Origin: Mactra quadrangularis
Taxonomy: Eukaryota > Mollusca > Bivalvia > Venerida > Mactridae
Direction of reading: 5' to 3'
DNA: 64,000 nt
Assembly: GCA_025267735.1 (NCBI GenBank)
Contig: CM046299.1
Location: forward strand, 26,562,468-26,626,467
Shown here in pieces: positions 12,001 to 64,000 of this stretch; the stretch's first letter is position 1; every line of letters begins with the position of its first letter. Below the pieces are notes generated by a model that searched no databases, was not told the DNA's origin, and saw only the letters and a program-made list of their open reading frames with translations. A program made the position numbers and the translations under genes.

Positions 12001-15000
12001 TAAAGTTCAAGATGTAGTGGGCACATTTATTTTGAAGTTATGAAAAAAGAACCAACTTCCTCTTGTACTGAAACAAATAATTATTGAATAGGAATGAATT
12101 TAAAGACATTAAAAAAACAATGAACAATATTTTTCAGGATACAAGCAAATAAAGAAAAGACTACGGAAAATCACTCAGTTTATTTATTTAAAACATATCA
12201 TTAATGATAGTTTTTTTTAAGTTACGCCACTTTAAAAAAATTCTAAGCTTTTACCAGTTAAGATATATTTTATATTTATATGTATTGAGATATACATGGT
12301 TCTTCCCAATATCAAGAGACTTATATAGCCTTCATCCCAGTAAAACAATAATTGCTATGATGGCATTCATGAAGGCTATTAAAAGTTTATATGCAGTACT
12401 GCGAATTTGTATTTATAGACACATGACTCTTCCTACTTTCTCAACAGGTTTTTTTTATTCCCATTTCATCATTTATGTTAAATTTGACACGAATAGCCTC
12501 ATGGTTCAAACTTAAACATTGAATACATTTGTGATACGTGGTTGTTTGAGATGTAGACCTGACAAATAAACATATCTCAGAATTTTGCAATTTCCATGCC
12601 AACGAAAGTAACTAAATTTTTAAAAAAATCCATACATTTCCATTAATATCTTAAAAATTATATCAGCTAACACAGTTTTAATGGAAAAAATGAATTCTGC
12701 ATGAAAAAATACATAGGCATGCTAAATTTTAGGAAAATTCATGGAATAATAAGAGTGTAGTACATTTTTTACCAAAAAATTGTCAGTAAAAAGTTCCGTG
12801 ATAAGCCTTTTGGCTTACTATATGCGTAATGGGAAGAAATTCTAGTGTTGGGGCGCATTTTTCACCCCTTAAAAATGGCATAACTTTAGTTCTAGAAGAG
12901 ATATACTTACAATTTAAACTGTTCTACAAAGCTTTCATCAAGAGCTTTTCAATGATATAACTTACAATACTATCTGACAAAAAATAAACTTGGTCTGGGG
13001 TTGCTAGTTTTACAGTAGGTTAACAGAAATAAATACTCTTACAGTATAAACAAACAGCAAATCATTCACAAACACTAAAAAACATGTAAAATTTTTCTCA
13101 GTTTAGAGCTTATTTCATAACACTGGACCAAACTGATAAAGTCTTATTGTATGGCACAGAACTGTGCGTGCACTGCATCTCAAGAAATCTTAGTAACAGC
13201 AGCTGGCAAACACAGCCATTTGGAAAATGAAAATCATTGTGATTTTTTATAATTTTTGATATTCATTTTATTTTTTTATGAATTCATTTGATTGCTTGTA
13301 AGCCGATATGCACAGTTTTTCTTAGAAAACAAGTTCTTTGATATTTTATATTTCCGCCGTACAATTAGTTCTATTTTTATTTTTGAAATACAATGATCAT
13401 GTGATTGTCTTATGTTACATTATAACTGCGTTGTAATCTGCGTTTGATTTTTAAACTGCAACGGATATAAAATAAAAAAGGTATTTACTACAGATGCACT
13501 TGTTTTCATTTAACAAACACAATAATAAGCCCCAGCAAACTTTAAAACAGAACAAAATCATGTTCAGGAACCAGGCCTAGGGAGCCGCCGATGTACAGCA
13601 CTTGTCCTCATACAGGTGAACTTAAAGAGTGATGGCTAAAAACCTGTAGTTTAATCAGTAAAACTTACAGGAAAAGTGCTGGAAACCAGCTACCAGGACT
13701 TGAATTCCATAAAATTTTACAGGATTTTTTTACAGAGTAAATATCAATAAAGTTAAACAAATATACCATTTCTGCCTAAGTACCAAAATGTTGCTTCATG
13801 GATTTCAACAATATTTTGTTTACACGTATAGTCCATTTTTTCTAAACTGTCAAAGTTTGAATAATTTCACGGTGAATGATTACACACTTATATCTCAATA
13901 TCATGAGTGTTAGACAAAGAGCACGAAGTCACCGTGAAATTGTTCATGTTTTGAAAGTAGAGAAAAAACGAACTATATTATTTGACAACATTAAACATGC
14001 ACTGTATGCATAGTCGCGAATTTCCGTATGAAATCTCCATAAATACACGAATGTATCACTTTAAGTTTTAGTAGTAGAATTCAAAGAGGCATCTAAGGAC
14101 TTAGTGTAGTTTAGTCTCACAATCAAGAGGTTACAGGTTCGACCCCACATCAAACCTTTTTTGCAATTTAAACATAATCGGTACATGCTTTACAAATACT
14201 TGTTAACACGACGGCGCACGGATTCCATGATTTTTAAAAAACCTGAGCGACAGAGTATTACACACATAATGGGCGTTTTCATGTATGAAAGTCCTCCAGT
14301 CTTTAACCATGTCACAAATTTATTATAAAATATAAATAAAGAAAAATGTATGATAATAACGAGACAAAAATGTCGTTAAATGATATATAATTAATATTCA
14401 GTCAATTAGTAAAAGTAATAAGTAAGTCATAGTGTTCCTACTATGTTACTGGTGTTTGCGAAATTACAAAAATATCAACCTGTGCGGGAATCGAACCCGG
14501 GGTGTTTCAACTGACAAGTCAGTACTTTACATCTGCACCACAAACCGTTTGATATAATACAATCGTTACATTTCATCCATATTTTGTATTGTCACTAATT
14601 AAAGCAACGAAACTTGACGAATGTATACGAACTATGCCGCAAATCGATACGGAAACTAATAAAGTGCATGTTTAATGTTGTCAAATAATACATGTATATT
14701 AGACAATATAACGTTTGTAAACATAAGAAGTATACATTTATACATGAATCTCAACACTACAGCCTTTAAACAAAACTGTCTCATACATCATTACAAGTTA
14801 TAAAGTCAATGAAAACAAATGTTGCACTTAAAGCTTCGACTTCAGAGACATAAAACCTAAACATCAAAATATTCGTGATTCCAACTAAAATACATATTGG
14901 CAACAATTCTATGGTTTCACGAGGTACAGGCGTATAACAGAGCCAACAAAGATTATAAGAATTATGTTTCTCTCCATGCAATCTACAACAAACTATTGTA

Positions 15001-18000: not shown

Positions 18001-21000
18001 CGTAGTTAGTTATCGTAAAAATAATGGTTTATCGACATAAAAACAATGAAAAGCCGTAGTGGATCATAATATTTTTGTTGATTCTGTTTGTACAGGTGTA
18101 AAATACATTTTTTTTCATCTTTTTTGCGATGTAAATTGGGTATGACTGAAACACGAAATGGAGATTTTGAGGCGAAATGGACGAAATGGAGAATTTGGGG
18201 CAAAATGGGGTTTTGATTGTTTAATCTATTTTGTGTACTGAAAATGAACAAAGGTAAAATAAACTACACAAATATCGATAAACTGGAAAGAATGTTTAAC
18301 TTATATTGATTTATTGCCGAATTCCCACAAATAATCGTACCAAAGTCAGCATATAAAGACAAAATCGTTGCACATTTTCTGTTTTTAATATCATCATATT
18401 CTAATTATAAAAAAAAACAATACAATAAACAGCATAATTTGAAAGCTAAGGCACATAATATGCCAACATTACTAACTCTAGTGTCCAACTGTTAGTGCAA
18501 AAAACGACAACAGCAGAAAACATAGCTGGTACAAGTTTAATCCCCAAATAGTCCCCTCAAGCTTGCCAAAAAGCAATGGAGAGAAGGTTTTTGTATGATA
18601 ATGCAGAGTTTAACATACATTTTCCATCTCAAATACCAATTTTAGATGATATATTTGTATAAAGTAGTATTATTTGTAATTGACCATTTTGACGTTATTT
18701 TTCTCTATAAAATCTCTTGCAGTTTCAGTACAGTAATCTAATACAAATTCTTATAAAAAAATTTTAGAAACGGTAAAATTTCTTAAATTTTTCATTATAT
18801 GGGCAGTTAATACTGCAGAAAATTTTAAAACTAGTTGCATGTGTCTAACTAACTTCTAACTTGTGATATTTGCTTTTAAAGATAGGGTAAATTTTTTAAC
18901 ATTCTCAAAAACTCGGATTTTTGCTTGGGGTACATGTAAGCAAATCTCTGTATTTTTATATGTATTTGTCCAAAGTGTAACCTGGTTGCTCTGATTTGTC
19001 ATTACATGACTGTATAACAAGAAAATGGATTAAAACTTGGAAATAAAACAGCAGAATTTGAAAAAAAAGTTCTTTCACTTTTTGTCCCAGCACAATTTAC
19101 GGTCTTTCTGAAAATGAAGTGTCACGTTATAAAAATGCACATAAGTTACAAACGGTAAATTTCTTTAAAATTTCAGCATTCAATGTCTTTAATAGTATAG
19201 ATTCAAGAAACAATATCAGTATAAGAATTGTGGAAGGTCACTATTACAGTTCCAGAACCTTAAGAATAAATTCATAATTTTTGTTTTGTAGCATTAATGA
19301 ATAGGTTTTCACAATGCAATTCTCAAAAATCTTCTTGTCTGAAACTACAAGGCCTAGAGCTTTCATATTTGGTATATAACATCATCTAGAGGTCCTCCAT
19401 CACAGTTGTTCAAATTATGCCCCTGGGTCAAAATTGACCCCACCCCATGAATCACAATATTACATTGAATTATATAAGGAAAAGTTCAAACAACATCTTC
19501 TCTTGAACCGCTTATGATAATTTGCCCAAACTCAACAGGAATGGTCCGTGGGTGGTTCCCTACCAAAATTGTTCAAATAGGTCTGATCGGTTGGATAAGT
19601 AGGTCACTGGGTCAAAAAATAGGTTTTAACATTAGTGGTCCTCTGTAAATGGCTCTTCTGTGACCTTTGACCTTTTCCTCAGGTGAGCACACAGGGCCCT
19701 TTGGGCCCTCTTGTTTTTAAATCGACGCCGTTTGTCTTTTTTAAAGACATTTCTTGTTTAAGTCGTATTCAACAAATATCTAGGTCATATATACAACGGC
19801 CAGCTCTTCCTACTACAGGACACTTTTCTATCACTAGTATTAACTTACCCTACCACAAGGCCAAAAACTCATGTATAGGGTATGACCTACCGCGACCAGG
19901 CTCGAACCCTCTCCGGATTCGAAGTCATACATGATGTCCACAGCGCCACAACCGCAGCTAATGTATTTTTAATTGATTTGTACAATTATTGTATCTCTCA
20001 GTACCTGAGTCAATGCCCTTCTCCTCTAGTAGTGATGTTGAATGACAATGTTAATACATTTAGCAATATCTTGTGTTTTAAGTGTGTACATACTTTTAAG
20101 AAGCTATTTTTAAAATTGGATTTAACGCCATATCAGGTCATTTTACTGCGTCCAACGCACCTAACCTAGCTTTCCTGGACCCTTGTCTATAACCAGTACT
20201 CACAACCCTTCCACAAGGCCCGAAAATTGACATTATAGTCTAAATTTAATGGAAGGGTATAACCTCCTGGGTGGGGTTTGAACCCGCACCCCCCTACGGG
20301 TCATGAGATTCCAAATCCTGGCACACTACCAACTGCGCTATCCACCTGGGTTTAAGAAGCTATTCATGGTGGCCAGTTCACATAACTGAATATGATTAGA
20401 GGTTTAAGATTAGTTAAGTGTGCATGATGCCAAAGGTATTTAAATCAGTCTCTTTTCAAGACTATCTGTGGTAAGATGTTCTTTTTGTTCTACTTTTTAC
20501 ACAAATAAATAACAACATTAACAGGGTTGAACAGGGTATGACTTTGTTCCAATAACTATGTAACACTTTTTTTAAAGTGCTTATAATTATGTAGTAATTA
20601 GGAGTTCTACAGAATTACAAGTTTGGCTTCAAAGTAGCAAATCCAAGATGATGTCTTCTTTGTTTGCTATGGTCACCTCTTAATAGCATTCCCCTATGTA
20701 TGGAGCATTTGCGATGTACAAACCGCCAATTAAGCAAATGTTTGCAAACATTCTCATTAAGGAATGCAGGGTTGAACAACTTTGAGTCTTTACCAGTAGT
20801 TTTTCCCTTATCACTGACATCCAATTATCAAACATTCAAGAGAAACTTTTCAATCAAGTCTTTGTGATAAAGCAGGAATTCATTAAATAATCTAACGAAC
20901 AATTTGCATAAGAAATTTATCTTAAATAGTGAATTTTCTAAGTTTAATGTTTAATGCCTTACATGCTAAGCAAGATCATATAACATCAAGAGTTAAGCTA

Positions 21001-24000
21001 AAATTTACATTTCTAAGATTAAATAGGAATTTACAAATTGGCTTAATAAACTATTCCTGAAGATATTTTTTTATCTAAAATTGTGCATACATTGTGTACA
21101 TAAATCTTGTACCCAGACAATTAGTTTCTCGCCATGCAAACATCAGATGTAAGAATGTACTAGCAAATCCTACTCTCAGACTATGATCATGGCTTATAAA
21201 CTGCAAAACCTATCACATCTTTGAGCACGGAAGTAATCATAAATTTATTAGAAAATAATAAATTCACATATGTTACGCATTAGTTTTTAGATAAAACAAT
21301 AATAATATCTTATCAAGTTAGCAGGAAAACTTTGATTATTTTAATAGACTCATAAATTCACCAATCAAGGGATCATATATTTCTGCCAAGAAAAACCAAC
21401 CTAAATATTGTGACTTCAACAACCTACGCCGTTATCTCAGTCGGTAGCAAGTCTAACAAAAAATCAATTAAAAAGTGAAAAAGTGCAGTTTCAAGTCTGC
21501 TTCTATATAGATGTTAAGCCGACTTGACAGTTTTTTACAAAAACCCAAGGCGCTAATCATTGAAATCCCCTACAGGCAGGTAACCTTTGCAGTACCCATT
21601 TACATCTAGGTGGGGGTGAAACATCTGTAGGTAAATTTCTTGCTCAAGGAAATAAGCAGTGCCCAACGTGTGATTTGAGCCCATTATCTCTAAAAGTCTT
21701 GATCCCTTAGCCTGTGTCCTACCACTGGACCACTCCAACGTCATTCATGGGGTCAATTCCTTGATCATGACCTACATACCAGTATGTCTGTAGAGTTTGT
21801 TTATGACATATTTCATGAACATCCTCCTGGATCTGACTACATCTGAATCAAGTAGAGCAGTTGTCAGCAACTGGCCAAGGTATGTGCTTAGTACTAGGTT
21901 AAAAGCTTGGGTCCTGATATGTACAGTATAACCTGCATTAACAGCCACCTGCTATCAGCGGTCACCTGCTGTAAGGGGCCCATCTGGCTTCCTCCCAACA
22001 AACATTCCTCTATTTTGCATCTGTCTTAAGCAGCCAACAGCTGTCTGTGGCCATAGGTCACCTATATCCTTACAAATGTATCAATTTACCTGTATTAAGT
22101 GGTCATAGCAAATTAAATTTTAGTATTAACAAAGAGTCACCATCATTGTATAATGGTCCAGAGGTATGACATCCCATCCAGTTGAGTCTTTAAACAGTCA
22201 AAATTTATCAACTAAGTGTCATAACATAAAATAAGACTTCCAATTTACAACTGAACCTTGTTAAAGTTTAAGATCACCTGCTGTAAACAGCCAATCTAGT
22301 CACTTTCCTTCACTGGCTGCTTAATGCAGGTTCAACTGTAGATCATTCAATTTATTTATTTATTTATACTAGGTTTAACGCCATGTCAACACATTTTGGT
22401 TATTTTACAGCATCCAGCACACCAAACCTAGCTTTCCTGGAATCTCATCTATAGCCAGTACTCACCTACCCTTCCACAAGGCTAGAAACTTCTCCATATA
22501 CTTTATTAATGGAGGAAAATTGACATTATTGTCAAATTTTCATTGAAGGGTATGACCTGATTCAAAAGGATTCGAACCTGTACCCCCTTCTGGACATGAG
22601 ATTCCAAATCACGGCGCCCTACCAACTGTGCTAACAACCCAGGTAAGTTTTTTTGAAGGATTGTAAAAAGAACAATTGATGGCAAAGATTATAGGACAGC
22701 AATCAAGTTAGAATCCTAGATGGCTTCCAATTCTTTAAACAAATCATTTAGTGGTGTTAAATTAAATAAAATTTTAGCAAAAAAAGAACTAAAACAAGAA
22801 ATGTAATGTGGAAACCACATTTAAGCTGGATTTAAAAACTTTAACGCAAAAATTACAAAGGGAAATAATGCATAATATTAATAAAGCCAGGTAGAGTTGT
22901 GGTTACTGTCTAATTCTGTTCATCACATGGTAAGTTATCATTGTATGAAGTTTCATAAAGATCTAACAATAACTGGCAGAAATAGATGGTAAAGAGAAAC
23001 TTTAACGCTATTGAAAGCGACACTGTATCCACCCTCGTCTGGGTTTCGCCTAACTATAACTCTAATTTTTTCGTTGAAAAAAAGGCTAACAAGTAAATCT
23101 GTGAGCTAATGCTCACTAGTGATACCCCCGCAAAAATCTAAAAATATGCGACAAACAGAAAGTAGATGAGCAAGGAGCATGAAATCGCTTTACACCACAT
23201 GGGACTATGGGATGAAGCAATATGCAAAGTATTAGGCTGCTGCATGTTATAGTTGCTGAGAAAACTGCGACGGAAATTTTGTAACGGATGGACAGACGGA
23301 CGGACGGACGCACGCACGGACAAGGGTAAAACAGTATACCCCCCTCTTCTTCGAAGCGGGGGTATAACAATGTAGCAATGAATAGCTTGTACTAATGACT
23401 TAAATAGATTAAATTAAAAACGAGTTATAGTTTAAGGAAATGACTTCAGTTGATAATGTCATTAAACTTGAGTACAAGAAAGTCATGTGGAAACCACATT
23501 AAATATGAATTTTATCCTAATGGAGTAAAGTCTGTCTTGAGCTAAGGGTCATGTCTCAACAAGGGACACCTGTGGACAACATACACTTCAATCCCCCACC
23601 CCCCCCCCCCATGAAAATGCTCTTTAAAATTCTTTTGGACAGCAGTCACACATGTTGTCCATGGACAATGAACACTCATATAATTTGTCTCCCAAATCCA
23701 TAAAATTACTTAACACAAAGTAATTACAAGTAGTTTCACAGCTAACATACACTTTTAAAACAAACCATCAATTATGTTCTTATGTACTATAAATATTAAA
23801 TAACAATAGTAAACAAAATGTGTCTGCAAACATTTTACAATAAAAATGAGAGAAAATATGGAAAAACACCGCATGTGTAATGAAAATTATTGACTCAAAT
23901 GCACGTCTTCATTATGTTTTTGAACATCTGTAAAAATGTGGGATAGTATATTACACTGTATTTTTTTATATTCACCACGTGATAAAACTTAGATTCTTCA

Positions 24001-27000
24001 TAGACAACTTCCTTATTTCGTTACCGTATATAAACTCTCCCTTATCCACTAATTATTGATTTGGTTGTAAAGTTTTGCAGTTTGATTTGACAATCAACTC
24101 AAATTCAAAAAATAAATTGAAATATATTTTCTGTCTTTCGAATTTTATCACCAAAATAGGATGTCTTCGTGTGGTAATTTTATGTGGGTAAGTCTAATGA
24201 TTCTTTTAAAAATTAATGTAATAATGTTACCTAGATTTTAATGCAGTCTTGTATTAAACAAAGCTACTTGAATTTAAAGAAACAGGGTTTTTTCAGGGGT
24301 TTTGGGGAAAAAGGCCCCAGCCCAAATTGGGAATTTTTTACGCTAATTTGGGAAAAATTATTGACAAATCAACCCAATATAGAACTTTCATCATTAATTT
24401 TTCTGTATTAAATCTTTATATGCCTTGCTTTGGTGACTCTGAAAGTGTTGCAGTGCTATAAAAGAGTTTGTGCTGACAGTTCAATGAGGCATTCAAATCA
24501 AATTCTCATGTATTTATTATTTTTACATGATAAAATCTTGTGATTTCTTTTGTGACATCTGGTTCAAAGGGAATTATTTAACACGATTGGGAATTTTTTT
24601 CTTGAAATTGGGAAAAATGGTCATTATTTGGCATTGGGAACGGGGCCCATATTCGGCCCCGTGAGATAGGTTGAAAAGGCCCTGAGAAATAAAGTTTTTT
24701 GTTTTGAGTAGGCTGTAGATCATCAACAGAACCAAGTTAGGAAGTATGTAAAAGAGCCATCCAAAAAGAACATTACAGTCTTGTAAAAAAAAACTATTTT
24801 TTACTAATAGAATTGAATCTTATTTTCAGATGTACATATTTCACTTAATCTCTGTAAACAGATATCCAGTAGACCATTGTCGTACAGGATCTCTAAGGTT
24901 TGCATGGAGGGTCACATCGAGATTACCTTTGTGTCTTCCAGTCAATGCGTAGCTTTCATCTAGACAAAACAAAAGATAGATAGCATTTTGATTTCATAAT
25001 TTCAATTTTTAAACCAAGGTTTGCCAGCTAACTTGACAGCGGAATTATTCACAGTTTGCGATTGGACAGCTCATTTCAAATTGTGTGATGTAGACGATGT
25101 AGATAAGTTACTAAACATAACAATTTTGCCATGAATATTTTAATGAGAAAAGGTCACCTGAGCGTGACCCTCAAGAAAACTGCCAGTCTCATCTAAATCA
25201 GTGGTTATACAGGCCAGTGGAAAATTTTAGATGGGGATATAATCAGATTGACACATTATGTTAGTTAAAATATATCATATCATTTAAAAAGGAGTAATAA
25301 ATTCTTTATACAATTCTATTACATATAATATATTGATATTAACAAAAATACAAACATTTTGTTTTTTTGTTTCTCAAGTATAAATTAAAAATTTAAAACA
25401 AATCACACATTTACAAAAGTGAAAAGGTAATTATAGATGGCGTGCAATTCAGGGGTTTTAACTCATTTCATACTTGCACTTAAGCATTACGTTCACTTGA
25501 TACACAACTTGACCAAGTTATTCCCTAGGTGAATTGTCTTTCAGAAAATGCCAGCTGAAACCAAATCTCAGTTATCATGGGCAATGCTAGGGTAGAGCAA
25601 AAGGCCAAAATATGCAAATTTAGCTCTTTTTACATCCTTTTCAACCCAAAGTTTGCATTTCATTCAGTTCTGTTGTTCCAAAATGAGGTTTGAATCAGGG
25701 TTGGGTTTTTGCCGGCAAAAATGACTTTTTTTCTTTTCCACTGGCAAAAACTGGTAAAAACCGGCAATAACTGGAAAAAAACGGCAAAAATGGAAAAAAC
25801 TCCAAAATCATGAAAATGACTTTGTTTTGCTTAATGTTGTGCTTGTATCACACACTTAGTCAGTGCAAATACTATTATGATTGTTATTTGTTTATGGTTT
25901 GCTCTCAACTTCTGAATATTGGTACAATTTTGAATGGAAAAAAAATATGAAAAATTTGTCCATAATATAAATCTTGGGGATGAATCTAGGACCCCTCTCA
26001 TTGGCATCCAGAGGCATCTCATGATCTGTCAAATGTCAGTCTTTAACTATATTTCAAATTGAGACAAATTCTTTAACTGTGAATAAAAATGGAATGTTCA
26101 TATAAATAGGGACCTCGTGTCATCAAATTATGCATCTTATGATATAAAATACTATGTATGTAAAGTGAAATGTATATCTGTCATAAAGATGTGTCAATTG
26201 TGAATTTGTGGGAAGGTCTGTAGTTGATTACTATATGGGCACAAATATCATATTCAACATTAAAGTAATTAGTAATTTCAATATGTTTAAAAAATATAAT
26301 CATTCCACTATAAATTCTAAGAAACTTGTTATTTTCCAGTTTTAGCCACCCCCTTTTTCTAATTTTTTTCCACCAGAGGCAAAAACTTCCAAACTGGCGC
26401 AAAAATATATTCTTAATTACTGTATCATTCAATTTCTTTTGAATTAAAGTAATTAGCATTTTTTTTATCAATATTATGAAAATATTTACTTTAAATGTAA
26501 GAAATTTAGTTTTTTCCCAGTTTTTTGCCACCCTATTTTTTCCTTTCAGTTTTTTCCAAAGGCAAAAACTTCTAACCCTGGACACAAGCTCGACTGTTAT
26601 AAATGTTTATTAATGTATCAGTCAATTTTACACTCAATATGATAGTGATTAGCACATTCAATCAGTTTTAAGTACAAATTTATAAATTCTCCTTAAATTT
26701 GAGATACAAGTATTTAGTTTTTCCCAGTTTTCTCTTATTTTTTCCACTATATATTTCCTTGCATTTTTCCAACGGAAAAAAACTCCAACCCCAGACACAA
26801 ATATGATTATTATGTATTGTTTAATAATAATTTCAGTATCAGTCAAATTTTACACTTATTGTTAAAGTTACTAGCCTTGTCAATCAGTTTAAAACACAAA
26901 TTTATAAATATATCCTTCTAATTTTGAGAAATTTAGTTTTTGCCACCCTATTTTTTCCTTGCCGTTTTTTTTCGGTTTTTACCATGGTTTTTTCCACCAT

Positions 27001-30000: not shown

Positions 30001-33000
30001 AACTTTTTTGACATTTTAAGTAAATGATTAGCTTGAATCATCTAATTTAATGTTGTTTATGGTCTTGTTGGTTGAGTTATTGATGACATTTAGTTCAAAA
30101 AATAAAATCAAAGTAACCTCTAGCAAATGAAGTGGCTTCAAGTCTAAGCTCCAGGGTATTTTATGTAAGAAGGCAGATGTTTACAAGGTTTGGGAGTCTA
30201 GTACATGTGAATTGTCAAGAATATTACTTAGGTTAAACTGTCCTCCCATTATGGCTGTGGGTCAGAAACCACTAAATCGAAAATTCAATCTCTCATTTTC
30301 TCTAATATCATTTACCGCCGGCCTGAGTCGTCAGAATCTGATGACCATGGTAGGAGCAGTTCATGATTTCTATTACTTGTCTAATACATGTTTTGTGAAA
30401 TCAACTGTCTGTGGTGCATATATTAAGCCCACTCAGATTTAAATACTCCCTACTGTTCATCTGAACTCTCGATCAAAAAAGTATAAATATCCATTTTTAT
30501 AAATCAGTGGGGTTAATTTATGTGCCACATGAAGTAAACCATGTAGAAAATACGAACGAAACATCAAATAAGACAATTTTGATAATTAAGATTGTTTGAT
30601 TTTATTCAATTCTTGAGCCTAGAAAAACAAAATGTCCATCAGTTAGCCAATCAAGAAATTATGATTACTGAGCTCACTTCGTGATTAACACCAAAATTGA
30701 TGAAGATTCTACGTACCACATTATATGAATATCACATTCTATGGAAGGACTGATAGAATGGAATGTTCATCATCAAGGCTTTTGCCGAGGTTGACATTAC
30801 TTGTCTCGGGCGAACATTCTGTTCTATCGCCTTTTGTAACATGTGATATCTATTTTATTAAACCTAACTTCAAAAATCAGAAATTGTTTACAATTCAATA
30901 AGCAAAAACCGTTTAATTTTATCTGGTTTATTTGCATCTGAACTTAAAGACATTTTACACCATTAAGATTGTTGTCTGTAAAAAGCAAGCATATGCACAA
31001 GGGAGGTAACTCAAATTGAATGGCTAAAAACTTGGGTCAGGTATCGACAAACTCCAAGGCAGTATTCTCCCATCACTTTAAGCAAGCCAATAAGTGATGT
31101 CTAGAAGGTAATGTTAGAGATTGTCACCTGGTGACGTCATATTGGGCTATACAATACACAATCACGTGAGGTATGATAATATATCATTTCAGCTGATTTC
31201 AGTATTTGTCATGGCAAATATTTGTGTGAAGTTAAGCTAATCAATGGAGCAGTATATCCTATTTGTATTGGTGATCGCCATGTTTGTGATGACCATATTG
31301 ATTGTCCTAATGGAATAGATGAGCACGGATGTCCTCCTGTCTTACAAACACCAGCACCAACACCAGCCCCTCTTCCACCAGCTCCAGGTACTTATGATTA
31401 TACTTATACTGTTCCTTCTTAGGTTTATACAGATTTGTTATTATTGCTATCATATTATTATCATCATCATCAAAAATCATCATCGTTGTCTTTGTCGTTA
31501 TCATCATCATCACCACCACCACTATCATTATTTTCATTATTATTATAATCATTAATATTATCATCATCATTATAAGTTCAAGGGCAATCAAAGTCAGAAA
31601 TATAGTTACCATCCTTGTTTCCTTCAAGACAAGAAACTTCATCCTAAATGCCGAGTACATACCATACTTAAAATTGGTAACTGAGGATGCAGACATTCAG
31701 AATGATATATCTATAAAGTTGAAATACTAATATAAATTGAACTATAACAAATTTGCTTGAACTATACTTAAAGTAACTGACAGGGATGATTCAGGGCCTT
31801 GTTCACTTTGTTGTCTTCATTCAAATAAACCTGATGGTATGGTCAAGATTTATTATCTTTTACACAATTTAAATCAATTCTTTATTTCAGTGACTTTGCC
31901 AAGTTTCTATGCGTGTACAAACCGCCAGTTCACAAATGCTCAATTACAAGGACCTGATGGAGACCCTATTGTATTTGCTGATGTAGGAACAAATGTTGGA
32001 GGTGGTTATAATGAAAATACAGGCCAGTTTGTGGCACCAATAGATGGTGTGTATCAGTTTGATTGGAGCTACTTAATCAACCGAGATGGCAGTTTATGGA
32101 CTGAACTTAGGGTTGATGATGTCCTCTATGCAAAAGCTGCCTCTTTTGCTGAGTCTGGTCAATATGAACAAGTTCAAAGAAGTCTTCAGTTGGACCTTAT
32201 GGCTGGACAAACAGTAACTATAGCCTATCACCATGGAACAGGGTCCATATATGGTCAAGAAGGACGTTATACTTGTTTTCAAGGCACCTTTTTGCCACAG
32301 ACAGTATAATAACTCAGTTACTATCATTCTTATTATAACGCTAAACGAAATTTCTATACCTAATCAGTTATTTGACTTTATATACATAAAAAAATTTCAC
32401 TGGTTTGTGTAGAAGTTAAAGAACAGAATAGAACAGAATATTATCTGATATTGTACCTTGTATGTTTAAAGTAAAACAACTCCAACAATGATGAAATAAC
32501 CAACTCAGTTCTATGTTACGACTTCTAACAGTAAACATCTATATTATATTCTAGTGGTTATAGCTATTATGCATTTGACTTTACCATAAAACATAACAGC
32601 ATACATAGCACATAGTTATAATTTCAACATAAAATACAATAAATACAAACTACAATGTCAATGTTTCTGTCTAAAATAGGGTATAGATCCATATTTGAGG
32701 TAATTAACAATATACATGTACATATCAATATTTAGTAATACATGTAGTTGGAAAATAATTAGGAATGTTTTTGAATACATAAATTTAACCTCGCGGATTT
32801 AAGATATTGTTTCTAATGTAAATAATGCTGCCTTACAGTTTAGTCTAAGCAATTTACTGGTACTAAGGTTATTCCTCTATATTAATTAACATCATTTAAT
32901 TCCCCCTTTTTATGCATCTTAACAATAACCCGCTCCATTCATTTATCTTGAAAATAACCTGATTCTGAAAATGAATTAAAGATATCACAAAAATGTGAGC

Positions 33001-36000: not shown

Positions 36001-39000
36001 GCACCAGTATACTATGTTATCTCAAGTCGCAAGCAATAAAGAATTTTTGCACATTAAGCAACTTTTAACAGAATGACTGAAGTTTATAAATTTTTGGCCG
36101 TGGAGTTCACTTTCCTGTAGCAACATGATTAGAAATCATTGTAAGGAAGCCAGAACTAAAGTTTGTAGATACCCCAACAAACAATTCAAATAACTTAACT
36201 TTTGTACTTATAACTTAGATATACATTCTGGCAACAGTTCTGACCAAAAACTTTAAAGAAAAAAAACATAATTATGAACCTTAACCAGAACAAACATCAC
36301 GCAGGTTTAGGACAAGTTAAAAAAAGTGAATTACGACTGTTTTGCGTTAAGCCCACGATCACATAACTACAGTTTTGAGGAAATACATGAAAATGTAAAG
36401 CTGGCATTGTTCATTGGGTAACTGCATGAGTATCTATATAAAATATGCTTAATCACAACAACAATTGTTTATTCCATCTTATACTTAGGCTTTCCATCAA
36501 CATATTTAGCTATTACAAACACTCATCCAACTCAGTATATATGTATATACATATATACTTGGTTTAACACCCTGTCAATAAAATTTAGGTTATTTTACGG
36601 CGCCAAGCCCACCTAACCTAGTTTTCCTGGACCCTTGTCTATAACCAGTACTCACAACCCTTCCACAAGGCCGGCAACTTCTCTATATACAATGTACCTT
36701 ATTAATGAGAAAAATTGACATAACTGTCAAAGTTTTATGAAAAGGCATAACCTCCCCATGTGGGATACGACCCATGCCCCTTTCTGGACACTAGATTGGA
36801 AATCCTGGCGCACTACCAACTGCACTTCTGACCCTGGTTTCATCCAACTGGGTTATAAACCATCAAGCTAGACAATGTTTTTATTTCAAATGAATAATCA
36901 TACAAATTCTTATACAATATTTATTTTTTAATCAGAATTTAAACTATTTTAGTATATAAATGTACAAGGAAGATAATCCAATCTTACTACTGTAAGACTA
37001 TCTAATTAAAATATAATGTACAGGTCGTATTCTAGGTCATGCGTGTTTTTGTACTTTAAACAATGGACTTGCCCACTAAATAGGCGATAAAGCTGATGCA
37101 TAAACAGCAATTTTCTTAATCATATATACCAATTTGATATTTAACATTTATTTTGATAGTGTTTATGCAAATTTAAATTTTGTATAATGATAATTATGTT
37201 TGTAAAATAAATGTAAACAAACTAAGCTGTAAAATTATAAAAATAATACACCCCTAAATATTGGTGTGTAATGAAATTGGCTATGTTTATATACGCAATG
37301 TTTACGTGGACGACCTGTATTATTTGACAACATTAAACATGCACTGTATGCATAGTCGTGAATTTCCGTACGAAATCTCCGTAAATTCACGAATTTATTA
37401 CTTTAAGGTTAAGTAATAGGACACAAAGATGCATCTAAAGACTTGGTGTAGTGGTAAAACCTACCACATCACAATCAAGAGTCCACGGGTTCGACCCCAC
37501 GTAAAACCTTATTTTTTGCAATTTAAACATAATCGGTACATGCTCTACAAATACTTGTAAACGACGGCGCATGGATTTCATGATTTTTTTTAAAAAACCT
37601 GAGCGAAAGTGTATTAATAATAGGCGTTTTTATTTATGAAAGTCCTTCAGTCTTGTCACAAACTTATAATAAAAATATAAATGAAGAAAAAAGTATGATA
37701 ATAAAGAGACATCAATTGTCGTTCAATGATATATAATTAATATTCCGTTAATTAGTAAAAGAAAGAAGTAAGTCATAGTGTTGCTACTATATTACTAGTG
37801 TTTGCAAAATTACAAAAAAAATATCAACATGAATGGGAATCGATCCTGGGGTATTTCGATTCCCAAGTCAGTACTTTACCTCTGCACCACACACCGTTTG
37901 ATAAAATACACTTGTTACTTTTTCATCCATACATTGTATTGTCACTCTTTAAAGCAACGAAACTTGGCGAATGTATACGAACTAAGCCGTAAATCGATAC
38001 GGAAACTAATGAAGTGCACGTTTAATGTTGTCAAATAATATATTGGTATAATACAATAGACCTTGTAATTCTATATAGATTTGGTATAATTACTTATTTA
38101 GTTATTTGATATATACAAAAAAATTTTACATAAGTCACTTAATATTTATTTACCTTAAGCAAGAATCAAGATGGCCCTAGATCGCTCACCTGAGTTAAAA
38201 AAGGTCATCTATATTATAAACTTACAGATGTAAGCATGACTATGCTTGAAAAAAGTTTGTGCAAGTGACTATTAGGTCCATAGGAGTCCCAGTCAATGAA
38301 ATTATTGGTTGTCTGGTTGCCCAGGACAACTAATTTTTATGTTGGGCAACCAACAATTTCTTTTGAGCAATCATAATTCTGCAGATGAGATAACACTTGC
38401 TGTTAATATGATCTGTTCGGACAACTATAATATCCTAATTTTGTAAACAGTAGGATTAGGACCCAATGTCCCATAATAAAACTAATCTGAGATTTCAAGA
38501 AAATATTGCATGTATACATGTATGTATGAAGCTTACAGTAACAGTCTGCATTTCATGAAAATTGCAGCAAAAAAACTCTGTGGGGGTATAAATAAGACCA
38601 CTGGAGACTGTTCACAAAGGTTGATAGGCACCATAGGGGCAACAGAAATCCCACAATCCTTAAAGTTTACTCTAAGCTCAAGATCTGGTGAGCTTGTAAT
38701 AAAACTTGTGCTCCAATTCTAGGGTTATAGGTGTTATAAGCATAAGATTTTAAGAAGCACTGTTAGTAATAAGTCATATAGATGGGTCAGTGCAAAACTA
38801 GTCTAAACACATGTAAGTATAGATGGATGTAGACTAGCAGGGACAAAACACCATTTTCAGGGAAGGGGCCTCAGCCCTTTATTAGGGGAAAAATAGCACG
38901 GTATTCACTTAATTGGGGAAAATGAACCCACTATATTGCCAGTAAAATAGGAATAGATGTATTAAATCACAGGTTTTACAAAATCAATTAGATATTAAAT

Positions 39001-42000
39001 TTATGTGGTAAAAGAAACAATATAGACTGCATTGTGAAGAAATCTTGAATATTTTTCCCTTTGTATGTCACAAATTATGGTTCAACATTATCTTTGGGAA
39101 TTTTTTATGGGATTTTATGGGGAGTTTGGAGGATCAAACTCAGGGGGAAAAAGTGTTAGTTTTGTTGGGGAAGCAGCCTGTATTCGGCTTCTGCATAGAA
39201 GAGTGTTTTGGCCCTGACTAGTTAAGCACTGATTCATTGATATAAATATCACACAACAGCAATCCTCTAGACAGGACAGACGTTAGAAGATCTAGCCGCC
39301 CGCTGTCTACCCCAGTCTCTGGGACACCGGCAGCAGATGACAAATAAACTATCGGATTTGATTGATGACGATTGATCATGCACTATATAATGGACTGAAA
39401 GGAAAATTTAAATAAAACTACAATACAAATAAAGGTAAAACAAAGTATATAATTTTATAATAAATGTGTACTTCAGCTATGAAAATACCCGGGTAATAAA
39501 TTAAACCTAAAACATATGCTGGTGTATCCCTGGTAGTAGTTTAATGGATCTGATTTCAAGATAGTTTTATATCTTTATTATTCCATGATGTAATCTAACC
39601 TGTTGGATTTCTATTTAGAAAAAAAAAACTCTACAGGCTTAGCAGATATGATCTCTTGAATAAATTCTATGCAGTAAACAGAGAAGTACAACCAGTGCTC
39701 CTTATTAGGGATGCTGCGAGTACGAAAAATCGAGTACGAATATTCGTCACGTCGCGAAATCGTCGGATCGCGATCTATTTTTGGAAAAAAAATAAAGAAT
39801 ATTTTAGCTTAATTAACAATGAAAACGAGGCGCATTACTTATGAAAATTTAAATTCATATATGGACTGAATTATCTTGTGTCAAAATTTCGTTTGATACA
39901 CATATAAACAAAAATGTTATCACTGAATATGCCTATAAAATGCTTGGAAATAGAAATGTTTGGAGTACATGGTTTTCCCTGTATTAAAAGCTTCTATAAT
40001 TCTTCACTTATTTTTGTTATAACATGAATTCCTGTATTCTCCTTCATTAACAAATGATTCGTGGTTCGATTCGTGAATCGCTACACATGAGTCGTGGTTC
40101 GGATCGGATCGCCACCAGCTCAACGATCCACAGCCCTACTCCTTAAACGCTAAATTTTGGCTGACATTATAACTGTGTTTTCACAATTTGAAAAAAAAAG
40201 ATGAAAATTCACAAAAAATTTGCAACAAACTTTAAAATTGTTGTGGACACAAAGCAATAACTCTAACTATCTGTTTTCTGTTTGATGCAAGATCAGAATG
40301 TAGAAATTTCATGACAGTCAAGTCTGCTGTCAGTAAAGGTCATTTGCGGTAAAGCTGGACCCCTAAAATCATGATATATCTCAATAACTATCGGATGGAA
40401 TTAACTCAAATTTTGTATGTGATCATAACTAGCATTTTCCTTCTCAAATCCAAAAATTCAGAATTTTTCTTTAATTACATAACATACTTCCCATAGACAT
40501 GCAATGCAAATTTTGAAGCCAAAAAGCGACTTTTGTTAAATGGGTATGTGCCATAATCAGAACAGCCACATAACAGTTGATACAAAATAATAGCTAAATA
40601 TGAGGCCCGGTTAGAAATTTTATTTAATTACAAAGAATAACAGTGTATACAAACTCAAATATCATCATCACTGTCATCTGCATCGTCAAAATCTATACAA
40701 ATTCTACACGTACGATTTTAAAGACGGGCCTCTGCTTTACAATTCAGTAGACCGTCGAGTGTTTATTTAAGCGACAAATTTACAGTAAACGCACGGGACT
40801 TTGTATAAATACACTGGAAGTATGACAATGTTATAATCAGAACAGCTTATTTTACCTCCCGCCGGATTTTTGATAAAAAATTCCAAATATTTTGCATTGT
40901 ACCTTATCGAAAACTTTTTTATTTATCTATTAAAAATTCTGAAAATTTTAATCCTAGAAGGAAAAATTAAAATAAGATTGTATTAAATTTTTTAGCAAAA
41001 TCGCTGTTATAGTTTAAAAGATATTTACGGCAAATAGGGGTCCAGCATTAACGCAAACGACCTATATAAGGTTTTTAAAATTCTGAATAATTGTCTCACA
41101 AATATTTGTCAACATTTTTTGAAAGTAAATATAAACCAAAAGTTCAAAATTTGAAAGGCATGGACTGAGGCACAAATATCTAAAACTATCTTTGATAACA
41201 GGTAAATTTAAATTATTCATACATGTGTACTTACATATATATCATCTGGTCCAGCATCGTGTGTGACCTCCCCAAACTTTGGCGGCAAGCTTCCAGATTG
41301 AACCTTTTCAAAACGTAATTGCACAGGGCCCTGAAAACAAAAATGTAGATTGATGATATTAATTTTGGCCATCAGGGTAACATTGGAAGAACATTATAAA
41401 ATAGACACTAAGAAATTAAGTAGCCTTTGATTGGCTGATATTAAGCTCATACAGGTATTTCATTGGAGGGAGAAGGCGTGGCCGAAGGATAACTAAGTTG
41501 GACTGCCAGCTCTACATTGGTTCAAATCTCATCCAAAATCTATCCTGTTGTTTCCTTGAGAAATTAAGACATTTGATTCTACTAGCTCAATACTGGGGGA
41601 CCAGGAAGTAAGTATCTGATTCAAAGTTGTAAAAACTTGTTTTACAATCAAGCTAAAGTATAAGTATTCACTAAATTAACATATAAATAAGGATAACATT
41701 GCATCTAGCACTGATCAGGAAGAAAATTTGCCAATATTGAATTGACGTAGCAAGTACCCATGCACTTACAATAATACCACATTTTAAAAAAGAAGATTAC
41801 ATACAACACAATAGAAATGCAACAATAATGTATGCATCTCTCATAGGTATATTCTGAATATTCTAAGGTGTTTTGATGTTTACTGCTGCAGTGCATGATT
41901 GCAGCGTGGAACGTTTTTCACTCAAGTATTTACTGAATTGATTGAAAATACTAAGACATTCTTAACAATCTCTTATTTCAATCTGACACCAAACTAATAA

Positions 42001-45000
42001 GCATAAAACGTTTAATAACCTAGTTGCCATGGTAACAGTAAGAAAACATGCAATCTCGTAATTCAAGGTATATTATTACACATAATAATAATGTTTTCCT
42101 CCATCATAGAACAGGAAATTTGAAAGCTTACAACAGTGTTTTTACAAATCTGACAATGATTTACTTCAATGGAACCAGAGATTCTAATAAAAGGGATCAT
42201 TTAAGTGACCCTACTCAATATGTTTCAAAATCTATTTTTGACGACCATTTAATGTAATAAATGACTGCGGTAAAAAAGAATTTTAAAGTTATTTCTGGTT
42301 CCACCCTAGCTTCTTAATTAAATCAGGCACAGTACATTCAAATCAACTTTAAATTCAAAAAGTTAAAAAAATTTAAGTGCAGTTTGAAGTCTACATCCAT
42401 CTGCTGACTTTACAATTTTGTATAACACCTGATCATTGAAATCAAATTATGATAATTCAAGCACTCATGGGTCCCCTCACAGTTCCCATTTACACCTAGG
42501 TGGAGTACGGGTCAGGTACAACTCAACCCGAAGACAACTCAACCCGAAGTTGGGACAACTCAACCTGTAAGTTGGGACAACTCAACCCGTGGACAACTCA
42601 ACCTGTGGACAACTCAACCTAGCTGGGTTGAGTTGTCTTCGGGTTGAGTTGTCCAGACCCTTGGAGTACGAACAGCTGTAGGTAAATTTCTTGTACAAAT
42701 TATCAGTGCCCTTCATGGGATTCGAACCTGGGGCCTCTTGATCCCTAAGCATAAGTCCTCCTACCACTGAAGCAATGTTCAAGCTTAAAAGCAGCAAATT
42801 CTTATAAATTATATGCACTTAGAGAGCCAATGAAACTTTTCTTATAAATTACTAAATGCTTTCAAAGTTAAGGAATTAATTAAACACTCTTCTGAAGTAC
42901 AATGTTTGACCAAATAAGGTCTTAAAATTCATATTTGTATTCTTTCCTTATCAAAATCAAACCTCATATATCACAATACATGTAATAAAATACCTAAGCT
43001 ATGTAATTTAGTAATGGTAAAAGGTTTTTTTTACAAATAACAATAACTGTTGAATGTAAGCTCTGATGCTTTATCTTAAATCTATAGCCCGAGACGATAG
43101 TGCAGTTGGTAGCGCGCCTGGATTTGGAATCTTGTGTCCTGAAGGGGGTACCGGTTCGAATCCCACCTGGAGAGGTTATACTCTTCCATGAAAATTTGAC
43201 AATGATGTCAATTTTCCTCCATTAATAAGGTATAATGGAGAAGTTTCCGGCCTTGTGGAAGGGTAGGCGAGTACTGGTTATAGACAAGGGTCCAGGAAAG
43301 CTAGGTTAGGTACGCTGGACGCCGTTATATGACCTATACAATGTGTTGCTACAGCGTTAAACCCAACAAAAACAAACTTAAATCAATACTATGATCAAAC
43401 AGAATAAGTTAAGTAAAAGAAATAACTGGTACAACTCAATGCTTCAATACAAGGCTAAAAAATGTTTTCCTATACATAAATAAAAGACCAAATCTTGAAG
43501 AAACAAGCTCAAAGTAAAAGTTTAATCATAGAACATCATTAATATCAAATAAAAGATGTAAAATCACATGGAATAAACTAGTAAGAAAGAAAAATCTGAG
43601 GTCACACAAAATGTAAGGCTAACAGAGGAAACATAAAACTAATATTGTTTGTTCATGCATATACCTTAAGGCCAAGACCAAATAATATCAGTGTGTTGGT
43701 CAATTATCACAATTTTATTCAACTGTCAGTGGCCCACACATTAACTCTATTATCTGATATACTACTTTATCGAAAATGAGTACAGAAGCACTGTGTGTTG
43801 AGTATTTAAATCAGTGAGGTTTAATGTAATTGTGCCACTGACAGTTGAAGAAAATTTAACAATATTGGTTGTCATGATGTAACCAGTATTTATAGTAAGA
43901 TTTCTTTCACCTTACGAAGGTCAAAGTGCATTGAATATTCATGAAGAAGATCCGAATGCGGTGAACAGGTGTGCAATACAATACGAGCAAGCGTTAATTA
44001 CAATTACTTTGACGCATCTCACTAACTGGTATTCTTAGCCCAGTGGTAACGCGTCAGTCGTCAAACCTAAAGGTTTAAGGTTCAAATCCCAGTAGCATAA
44101 TATTTTTTCAGACTAAAACCTTGCTACGTTTTTTTATCTTATTTATAATATGGAGTCAGTATTATATAAATTATCCAAGTTTTTCTCCCTCGTGAATCTC
44201 GTGCACACAAAGTGTATAGTGTATATAACGACCCAAATGTCTTTAAAGTGTTAGTTAGGTCATCATGTCTGAAACGTGTAAGCACGCAAAAATTGTCAAA
44301 AATGTAAAGAAATTATTTTAAAAAGTTATAATAAAACCCCAAAAACATTTAAAATATCCAATGAAAAAAATGATACCAGCATAGGATTTGAACCACCGAC
44401 CACTATGTCAAAAACGTTATTTTAGACGCAGCTGTATCCACTGTGCTAAGCAGTCTTTCGATAATTGCTACATTATAAATTTGATTACAATTAACATTGA
44501 CCAAGGGGAATAAATCCTCGGGGAATAAACCTTCCGAACAACCTCTTTTATAATGGTTTAGCCCATATTTACAAAGGTAAGCGCCGTGACCTTCGTAAGG
44601 TGAAAGAAATTTTACTATATATCAAAAGAACAATTTATCATCATCAACAATCTCCGTAAACAGATATCCTGTATAGGGATGTCGTACATGATCTCTAAGA
44701 TCTCAATGTCACGTCGATATATGTCGACCAATCAATGCGTAGCTTTCATCTAGAGGAAAAACTATTAATAACATTTTGATTTCGTAATTTCTATTTTTAG
44801 ACCAAGATTTGCAAGCTAATTTAACAGTGGTAATCCACAGTCTGTGATTGGACGGCTCATTTCAAATTGCGTGACGTAGACGATGTAAACAAGTTACTTA
44901 TCATAACAATTTCATCATAAATATTATGATGAGAAAAGGTCACCTGAAAGTGACCCTCCATAAAAAACGGCCAGATCTAAATTAGCGAGTAGACGAGCGG

Positions 45001-48000
45001 AAAGTTTTAGATCGGGTTTTAATCCGATTGTATTTATATCAAAAGTACAATTTATCATCATCAAGTTAAAAATTTAAAAAATGAGTTAGGACTGATTTGC
45101 GCTAAGCCTGCGATTATTGCTTGTATCACCAAATAGTTCTACCCACAGGCCACCGGCACGGTCTCCAATCAAAAAGGCTATATATACATATATTATGTAT
45201 ATACAGTGTTTTTGCTTCGAGACCGCGCCCACCACCTGTGGTTCTACCAATAGACTTCAGACTCCAAACATAACATTTCCCTGGCCTATAAAACCACAAA
45301 CAATTGTATACCTATGTACATAAAAATACAAGGAGTAAAAACATCAGATTCAGGTAGAAAAAAATAAGATAAACAATGATAAAGCTTCAAGTAGACACTT
45401 ATATAAGAAACACTATACAGAAAACTTAATATCTTGGAATTATGTACAATAATTATATACAATACAGAGTTTCTGGTTTCCTCAATCCAGAGCCAGTAAG
45501 TCATGGCCTGTTATTATTCCTATTATCTATTGTAAACAGTAAATGTTGTCTTATTAAGTTTACAGACACATGTCATTATAGGATCTCCAACATTGCAACA
45601 GGGGGGTGTCACCTTCAGATGACCTTTACGTCAACCAATCAATGTGGGCGTTATTCACAGGATGTGCTTGGACAATTCAATGAGAGTTGCATAATGAATA
45701 TATTAATATCAAAAGTCAGCAGAACATGACCTGTACTGCTACTTCCCCTGTGAGAAAAGTTCTTGAACTACAAGACTACTCAAGTTCTTAAACATTCAAG
45801 AACTATTATTAACCTCAAGAACTGTTCTTGAACAATCAGTTCTTGAACTTGCATTCTAGGACATAAAAAAGTTCATGAACTTAAACTATGCAAATGGCCA
45901 AAAAGTTCATGAACTTAAACTATGAATAGTTTGTGAACAACAAATGGCCATTCTAGGATCAAGTTCAAGAACTTTTCTAGAATTCCTTGCAGGGGAAATG
46001 TCCATACTAAAATAAGCAAGGACGCTAAGTGCCTAAAAATTCAATTTCTGATCAGGTTTTAATCAGACTGGTCATCATAATTCAGAGTAAGGAATGCCAT
46101 CATTCAGACAAACATATACATGTAAATGTATTATTTTAAAAATAAGGAAATAAAAGATAAAAAATAAAAGATACATCTTCCCACTTTGTAGTGCACAGAG
46201 AATGAAGCACCTGCATGATATCAAGTGATAACGACCCAATGTTTAAGAAATCAAAAGAGTGCACCATAAAAAAAATGGTCGAGGAATAAAAAATTTGAAT
46301 ACCTTCAATTAAAAAAAAACAGGATAAAATAAATAGATGTAAATGAACTTTCAGGAATGTATAAGGCGGTTTATATAACCATTGTTCAACCTGTTACAAA
46401 AACTGTTCTAAAATTGAAACCTTGCGGAAAATATGTAACTTACATGAATATGACACAGTGTTAAACTATTTTAATTGACAAAAATAACATGGCTGTATCT
46501 GATTGAAAATATGTAGACATTGCCAAAATTGTGAAACAGTCAAATATGTCAATCATTGGTAATAAAAACATCTGACTTCATTTACTTTTCTTTTATAACA
46601 TAAAAATTTTTTATATAATACAGTAGCAGTTGGTTAAAAAACAGGATTCTATTTAGATAGCTGAACTTAAAATCTAAGATCTAACAGGAAATTTTTGATC
46701 AGATTATCAATATGATCATAACTTCTAACATAACTGAAAAATCTCTGAACTGAATGGAACATTTTTACAAGTCTTGTTCTAGTCATGTTGTTGCTTCAGT
46801 CACAACATCATTACAGATATTCTATATACCAAATACTGCAATCATAGGTCTTCTGGCATCGCCAATTTTGGAACATGTTCAGATCATAAGCGGGCTGATC
46901 CAGGGGGTGGGGACCTGGTGCACTAATACCAAGAATCAAACCTATGAACCCGCGATAAGTAAATTTGTGTGATACAAATTGAGCTAAGTAAAATAAGAAA
47001 AGGAATGGTATTTTCAAGCTCAGCCTTAAGCACGTTCACTGAATTTACAACTGTTACCTCTTGTCATCAGGCTACTGGTATCTATCTATCTTCTTGATCC
47101 CTAAGCACCCAACCTTCCACTGGACTACTGCTCCTACATAAGCCAAGTGGCAAGCTTGTTGGATATAAAATAAGCCAGTATGCAAGTGGAGAATTTAATA
47201 TATATATATAGCACAATATATATCCTATATCTATTTACAAGGTCAAATATGATGAGTCAATTTACATCCTTGAACACCTGATCACAGGGATATTTGTAAC
47301 ATTCATTATCAGAGATATTAAGGTATGACACTCTCAAGATATTATAACACAGAAATATAATGACTTATATAGTTTTTATAACACAACTCCTACAATCAAT
47401 GTTATAATTCTATAAATATCAGAATATAATTACAGTAATACCCAAGAAATACAAATGCCTATTCAATACTTTAAGAACCCAACAAAAAGTATGGATGTGA
47501 CAGGCCTAGAGCATTGGTGAAAGTTGACAGTTTTGGAAATATTAAAAATTTATTATTTAAAATATTGATATAGACAGGTTTTCATATCAATTACATGAAG
47601 TAACTTATTCTATTTTCTAAGAACAGTAAAGTTCCGCTATTAAGACCACTTTTGTTATTTCAAAATCATGCGATTTTTGACAGTTATTAAGACCCAAATG
47701 CTTAATTTGTGAACAAAAGGGTCTCTATAATAAGACGGCTTCACTATTAAGACCATTGATTTTGCTGGTCTTAATACTAAATAGTCACTTTTCTGTACTG
47801 AAATCAGTATATTAATAATATTGATAATTTTCACCATGATGCAGGAGTCCAGATTTGGCAGCTTACAGTGTTCGGATTTCACAATTCACAAGGCATCCTT
47901 TCATTATATAAATATACCAAATAGTTCAAAATGTGACTGAAATAGTCAGTCTGAATTCTAATATACCTTTTATAATACATGTACATCAAATGGTCTATTC

Positions 48001-56105: not shown

Positions 56106-56426
56106 TTTGTTTGTTTGTTTGTTTTTGGGTTTAACGCTATAGCAACATACTGTATAGGTCATATAACAGCAGTCAGTCAACCTACTCACTCCTCCTGGAA
56201 AGGCTAAATCTTTGGATTTAGCTGTTAACCAACTACTAAGCGCATACTTTCGTCAGTGACAGACATTTTTCTGCCCAACATAATTAAAAATCATTGGTAG
56301 GAGGGAGTATGGCCGTAGATATAATTTCATGACCAAGCTCCACAAAAGTATGCTCCGTCCGGGAATCGAACCCACGACCCTTCGATCAGTAGACTTGCAT
56401 GCTACCAACTGAGCTAGCCGGGCGGC
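56106..56426 (-). repeat. tRNA-derived SINE, family A, full length
   Basis: TGCAAGAAAACT lies at 56094-56105 and 56427-56438. The head complement GAGCTAGCCGGGCGGC and B-box complement GGGAATCGAACCC are intact. Confidence 0.93.
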
Positions 56427-63800: not shown

Positions 63801-64000
63801 ATCACAACCTGATTAAAACCCGATCTACAATTTTCCGCTCGCCTACTCGCTAATTTAGATCTGGCTGTTTTCTTAGAGGGTCACGTTCAGGTGACCTTTT
63901 CTCATTATGATATTCATGACGAAATTGTTATGTTTAGTTACTTGTTTACATCGACCACATCACACAATTTGAAATGAGCTGTCCAATCGCAGACTGAGAA
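63801..64000 (-). repeat. Dispersed repeat, family R, cut by window edge
   Basis: The inverse of the 44648-45034 copy: CCTGATTAAAACCCGATC, GATCTGGCTGTTTTC, GAAATGAGCTGTCCAATCGC. Confidence 0.8.

Follow-up and report, generated by a model that had tools for sequence, protein, structure and literature searches.

Terminal-inverted-repeat elements with paired, inward-facing Pol III-type units in the genome of Mactra quadrangularis

Introduction

Positions 43891-44619 of a 64,000-nt stretch of the Mactra quadrangularis genome (the window, with a G+C content of 33.5%) raise the question of whether a single transposon can carry, between its terminal inverted repeats (TIRs), two tRNA-like Pol III units that face each other. 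This arrangement had been proposed from the sequence of the window (the original prediction). If it is real, it has to be asked what type of element carries the units, how the pair arose, and whether the units serve the element or merely travel with it.

Ends, target site and type of the element

The predicted 33-bp inverted ends with a single mismatch are present at 43891-43923 (plus strand) and 44587-44619 (minus strand), TA included, and are 97% identical. The outermost TA at each end (43891-43892 and 44618-44619, both unstranded) is the target duplication, and thus the element proper spans 43893-44617. The whole unstranded feature, 43891-44619 with the TA duplication included, is a two-unit “long” copy of a family designated A. 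Loci of this family read TA, then TAGTAAGATTTC...TACTA, then TA, with differing flanks.

The joined flanks of 85 elements were compared with the analysed sequence for empty sites. Sites with a single TA were recovered for the A insertions L024, L026, L038 and L057 and for the B insertions L075, L088 and L093. At L036, L060, L068 and L080 a match runs across the junction, yet no clean single-TA site is present; the other joined flank pairs among the 85 gave no match across the junction.

The features characteristic of MITEs were identified: (i) TIRs; (ii) a short TA duplication, seen against empty sites; (iii) lack of coding capacity, the window’s A copy and both of its B copies being overlapped by no stop-to-stop frame of at least 150 aa; (iv) a large number of copies. 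The TA duplication of A and B is also that of the Tc1/mariner superfamily, which a TA target fits. The focal element and its kin are probably non-autonomous cut-and-paste TIR elements of the MITE type with a TA target. The proposed type, a TIR transposon with two convergent tRNA-like Pol III-type units, is borne out by these ends together with the boxes described below.

Several other features were recorded in the window. A C1q-domain reading frame occupies 31761-32309 (Pfam PF00386, E 5e-15), and perfect palindrome arms of 50 nt, with one base between them, lie at 2221-2321. A separate repeat adjoins the focal element at 44649-45030 and has relatives at 24847-25250 and 63805-64000; near-identical direct repeats, each about 28 nt long (TATCAAAAGWACAATTTATCATCATCAA), lie on either side of it, as though it had been inserted with a long target duplication (window 44620-45080). 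Another TIR element of about 727 bp with 29-nt ends is located at 40337-41063; the box scan finds no unit in it, and the A copy L026 sits at a TA inside one of its relatives. Nested in the A copy L047 lies a TIR element of 572 bp (ends TAGTGCGGACACATTGACC), which was rejected as a fourth family, no units having been found in it.

Pol III-type units

The predicted A boxes, B boxes and T-runs of the convergent units were all located. On the plus strand, the A box TAGCCCAGTGG (44036-44046) is followed by the B box GGTTCAAATCC (44079-44089) and a terminator-like T6 (44103-44108). The minus unit consists, on its own strand, of the A box TAGCACAGTGG (44438-44448), the same B box GGTTCAAATCC (44384-44394) and a terminator-like T7 (44364-44370). 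In both units the T-run begins 13 nt past the B box, and 294 nt separate the two facing B boxes. The expected distance of 43-44 nt between A and B box holds for the plus unit (43, start to start); in the minus unit the distance is 54.

A weight-matrix scan for A and B boxes revealed 19 units across the 64 kb of the window, whereas six Markov-random windows gave 0, 0, 1, 0, 0 and 0. Five of the 19 lie inside three TIR elements and 14 elsewhere, many of the latter being SINE heads. With scores of 17.0 and 15.7, the A boxes of the focal element rank first and third among the 19 units. Runs of at least five T beginning 11-15 nt past a randomly chosen point occur at a frequency of 0.023, and both focal units possess such a run. 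All five units of the window’s TIR elements have their T-run 13-14 nt past the B box, versus one of the 14 others, at 56362-56416 (14 nt). Chance resemblance was rejected on the basis of the box scan and of the recurrence of the units across copies.

The units are not true tRNA genes either, as judged by ARAGORN and by Rfam scores below gathering. ARAGORN reports no tRNA gene in the window or in eight loci, and nothing in the Rfam scan of the window reaches the gathering score. The tRNA model RF00005 gives no match in elements A and B1 even at an E-value cut-off of 10; it scores 19.2 bits (gathering 29) for a minus unit in the family D copy L108, and a match of 25.6 bits at positions 379-437 of L073 sits in the flank, outside the element. 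Remnants of tRNA stems were identified, with four of four D-stem pairs in the B units (best register) and four of five T-stem pairs in the minus unit of the B copy L095.

The units have the type 2 Pol III layout, in which A box, B box and T-run stand at tRNA-gene spacing. As in SINEs, a tRNA-related head provides the A and B boxes, but the elements have TIRs and a TA duplication instead of a longer one, and the T-run directly follows the unit. Two abundant SINE-like families occur in the window, with heads TAGCTCAGTTGG...GGTTCGATTCC and TAGCACAGTTG...GGTTCGAATCC (places: 1516-2624 and many more; 22359-22633 and others).

Family A across the genome

The searched assembly comprises 979 Mb in 447 contigs. 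The search with family A returned 409 first-look candidates, 40 of which were scored. The inner core of the A TIR, with at most one mismatch, matches 359 times in forward and 351 times in reverse orientation, against 0 and 3 in the reversed control; at two matches per element, this corresponds to about 350 pairs of A ends. The proposed search for full-length copies of 43891-44619 was successful: 14 long-form copies, drawn from the best genome matches and including the focal one, align end to end (715-742 bp, some flank included). In 12 of these 14 both units pass the box score, the minus unit being damaged in L014 and L015.

Other forms of the family differ in length. The short form, of about 540 bp, retains the plus unit and is missing positions 429-646, which include the minus unit, and some copies lack positions 119-250. 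A larger form of 859-902 bp contains a middle stretch absent from the long form; this stretch has 40 matching places, about 24 of them across its whole length. The larger form was read at six places: L039 (L041 has the same flanks), L098, L100, L101, L105 and the C18 duplicates (L102-L104, L106 and L107), with L099 left out of the alignment. Both units pass at four of the six (L039, L098, L101 and the C18 copies, in four of five), a count that leans upwards, since this form was located with a central query; in L105 the minus unit alone passes, and in L100 none. The smaller forms look like internal deletion derivatives of the 859-902 bp form, and in the simplest order the large two-unit form would have come first and several deletions later. 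The five larger-form copies at C18:14.93-15.15 Mb carry the same 15-nt flanks and are probably a segmental duplication array.

For a census, every TIR pair visible in the first 100 listed matches, of 710, was taken (19-nt core exact; C1-C5), 36 in all, 33 of them fetched for this purpose and three already among the sampled loci. Most copies of the TIRs lacking the units would have spoken against the original prediction, and the census goes half of that way: by box score both units are present in five of the 36, the plus unit only in 19 and neither in 12. After removal of three same-flank duplicates (n = 33) the counts are 4, 17 and 12. Some copies scored as lacking a unit carry a damaged one (e.g. 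L015 and L044). No transposase or autonomous partner was found, and none of the 36 pairs from the first 100 listed matches, of 710, exceeds 1.14 kb.

Families B and D and the common layout

Family B has ends that differ from those of A and the same layout of units. Its two window copies, unstranded and given with the TA duplication included, are B1 (13976-14690) and B2 (37318-38040). In B1 the plus B box lies at 14136-14146 and the minus unit at 14487-14540, the plus A box being damaged by a deletion. B2 possesses a plus unit at 37444-37498 and a minus unit at 37836-37889, with T-runs 13-14 nt after the B boxes. The genome search with family B gave 810 first-look candidates, of which 40 were scored. 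The 26 full-length copies among 30 fetched loci were aligned together with B1, to the exclusion of the partial L083, L084, L087 and L094. T-runs follow both B boxes in all 27 aligned copies; the box score is passed by both units in 21 copies and by one unit in six, counts that lean upwards with a full-length query. The minus B box of most copies nearest B2 is changed (GGATCGATTCC), while more distant copies read GGTTCGATTCC.

A genome-wide scan for convergent B-box pairs at a gap of 255-285 nt revealed 29 places: eight belong to A, two to B and three to a new family, D, and the rest are mostly chance SINE pairs, judged from the printed letters. No genome-wide convergent bias was seen at these gaps, with 29 convergent versus 42 divergent pairs (scan positions only). 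The three D loci (L108-L110) hold TIR elements about 630-650 bp long, with convergent units whose T-runs stand 12-14 nt after the B boxes. One is nested in a SINE and one has its right end cut; L108 and L109 are flanked by TA on both sides. The search with family D yielded 103 first-look candidates, and 40 places were scored: both units are covered at nine, only the ends at 28 and other pieces at three. Of the 28, 24 consist of the query up to position 94 and from 586 on, and in four the right part begins at 517-556.

At gaps of 350-380 nt the scan gave 77 places, with 17 of the B type among those listed with letters. At least four T follow both B boxes in all 17, which had been picked by intact B boxes, and the bases before the T-runs differ. 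Possible further pairs are located at C6:39478410, C8:4572208, C9:39892475 and C10:29992455. The first of these, together with C6:39488744 and C6:46052696, forms a set of convergent pairs whose 3' parts are identical (GGTTCGAATCCGGCTCGCGGGAG); amplification of a genuine tRNA gene pair along one chromosome may account for them.

Outside A and B elements, the loci, 219,586 bases in total, contained no other convergent unit pair, except a mixed pair in L028. Window positions 172-373 and 19765-19949 were considered as family D and rejected as a separate repeat. A search of phages and viral contigs returned nothing, and one further search yielded two isolated matches, neither with a partner end, which were attributed to chance.

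At least three families (A, B and D) share one layout, successively: end, about 100 bp, inward unit with T-run, centre, and the mirror image of these parts. In every unit listed, the A box starts 118-173 nt from the end, and the T-run stands 11-14 nt after the B box.

Mobility and role of the units

Taken as a whole, the observations are probably best explained by MITE-type families A, B and D in which the units are passengers and the pair goes back to an inverted duplication of a single arm. A transposase supplied in trans and acting on the ends would move the elements by cut-and-paste. Unit-free and one-unit copies have spread, so the pair is not needed for movement; the units would be passengers in amplifying lineages and dispensable in cis. 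Where intact, they would yield two separate RNAs of about 90 nt, each ending before the two meet.

The foremost alternative is that the units work: TFIIIC or Pol III on both arms would keep the ends open for the transposase or shield the element from silencing, in the manner of an insulator, and the layout would owe its spread to this. It draws on the single layout common to three families and on the T-runs, which persist in all 27 aligned B copies and, despite differing preceding bases, in all 17 B-type places. Boxes and T-runs in B also vary slightly less than the rest of the element (0.042 versus 0.064, with 0.10 of shifted masks as low). The A boxes, in contrast, are no less variable than the rest (0.030 versus 0.026, with 0.73 of shifted masks as low), and no clear extra constraint on the boxes is present: it is not seen in A and is weak in B. 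Moreover, the intact pair is missing in 31 of the 36 census A elements, only ends remain at 28 of the 40 scored D places, and the minus B box is altered in most B copies nearest B2. Working units are thus unlikely.

A related proposal, that of a lineage with an end and an inward Pol III gene per arm, kept for TFIIIC or Pol III occupancy and giving rise to unit-free derivatives as second-order parasites, is likewise rather improbable. If it were true, occupancy of the arms would serve open ends, protection from silencing, or small RNA.

Origin of the paired arms

For the origin of the pair, the two arms of each family were compared with each other and scored against shuffled sequences. Compared as inverted repeats without the TIRs, the B arms score 80 against 42.2 ± 7.4, a value reached in 0 of 500 shuffles. 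Whole B arms with the boxes masked retain a weak similarity (56 against 44.4 ± 7.3; 43 of 500), and the B plus and minus units match outside the boxes (35 against 18.8 ± 3.2; 1 of 500). The D arms match in L108, L109 and L110 (0 of 500 each, boxes unmasked); with the boxes masked the match persists in L108 (43 against 25.0 ± 4.0; 1 of 500) and is weak in L109 (55 of 500) and L110 (41 of 500). The A arms score 58 against 40.2 ± 6.4 (8 of 500), and no similarity is left once the boxes are masked (167 of 500).

That the two arms resemble each other outside the boxes as well, both in B and in the D copy L108, favours inverted arm duplication over two SINE insertions. One arm, end and unit together, would have been duplicated in inverted orientation to give the pair. 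On these alignments, arm duplication with the unit included is the favoured origin in B and D and a possible one in A, while descent of the two arms from a common source, in B and in D, is supported but not settled.

The relationship between the families was approached through their ends. The B end resembles the D left end (32 against 14.1 ± 2.8; 0 of 1000 shuffles; by copy 0 in L109, 0 in L108 and 18 in L110, of 500) and does not match the D right end (187-381 of 500 or 1000 shuffles). The A end is unlike the B end (793 of 1000) and does not match the D left end; against the D right end the count is 33 of 1000. Descent of family A from B was rejected, since the ends are unlike and the boxes account for all likeness between the whole elements. 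Over their full length, A and D score above shuffles whichever orientation is used (0 of 300 each), with boxes and AT-rich runs unmasked, so that no inference is drawn from this score.

Two independent SINE insertions within a TIR element are a quite improbable origin of the pair. The original prediction had named this outcome, with each SINE bearing its own target duplications, as one that would overturn it; no such duplications were seen. tRNA-headed SINEs are common in the window, A copies missing 119-250 exist, the outside unit at 56362-56416 also has its T-run 14 nt after the B box, and the A arms match through the boxes alone, all of which would suit two insertions. The position of the T-run nevertheless sets the TIR-element units (5/5) apart from the others (1/14), and units and window SINEs share only 14-nt B-box words (E 7.1). 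In the B units and in D copy L108 arm similarity extends past the boxes, and an A deletion of 430-499 passes through the minus unit, not around it.

It is very improbable that another protein, such as a transposase, uses the boxes as subterminal motifs and that they are tRNA-like by chance. Subterminal inverted motifs are indeed common in DNA transposons, but an A box, B box and T-run at tRNA-like spacing recur in six kinds of unit, and stem remnants (D-stem 4/4 in best register; T-stem 4/5 in the L095 B minus unit) accompany them. Double-stranded RNA from convergent read-through, proposed at the outset and imagined here as feeding small-RNA silencing, is hardly credible: the units do face each other, with their B boxes 294 nt apart, but T6 and T7 directly follow them and, with these included, three runs of at least four T in the plus sense and eight in the minus sense lie between the focal B boxes, which makes read-through into the opposite unit unlikely.

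Comparison with known systems

DNA transposons that bear a complete unit of this kind in each arm would disperse Pol III promoters and TFIIIC sites by cut-and-paste, a spread normally ascribed to SINEs. The presence of one-unit, two-unit and unit-free copies of the same family in one genome allows a direct comparison of how Pol III units affect chromatin, small RNAs and transposition. For annotation, a tRNA-like head alone does not prove a SINE.

The original prediction knew of no described family of this kind, and none was recognised here: the full-text literature searched, mostly without subscription papers, gave no description of a TIR element with paired Pol III units. The closest system found is MER6. 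MER6/MER6A is a Tc1/Mariner MITE of mammals that has captured a piece of a SINE; it is 865 bp long, has 24-bp TIRs and a TA duplication, is non-coding, and has a variant with an internal deletion (PMC6887750). It thus resembles A, B and D in its TIRs, TA duplication, lack of coding capacity and internal-deletion variant, and its inner part is SINE-derived. In contrast to these families, MER6 captured a SINE body and tail with no tRNA-related head, and the available part of the source mentions no Pol III unit pair (PMC6887750). The MITEs of bivalves are likewise abundant non-autonomous TIR elements, not further classified by their annotation; tRNA-like units are not mentioned for them in the accessible part of that report (PMC10294476).

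The tRNA-derived SINEs, represented by two families in the window, possess A and B boxes at similar spacing. In contrast to them, A, B and D have TIRs and a TA duplication, with a T-run directly after the B box, and their units face each other in pairs with no SINE body seen. Two tRNA-related regions also occur in the Twin SINE of Culex, where they are arranged in tandem and retroposed, whereas in the elements described here they are inverted and lie within a TIR element.
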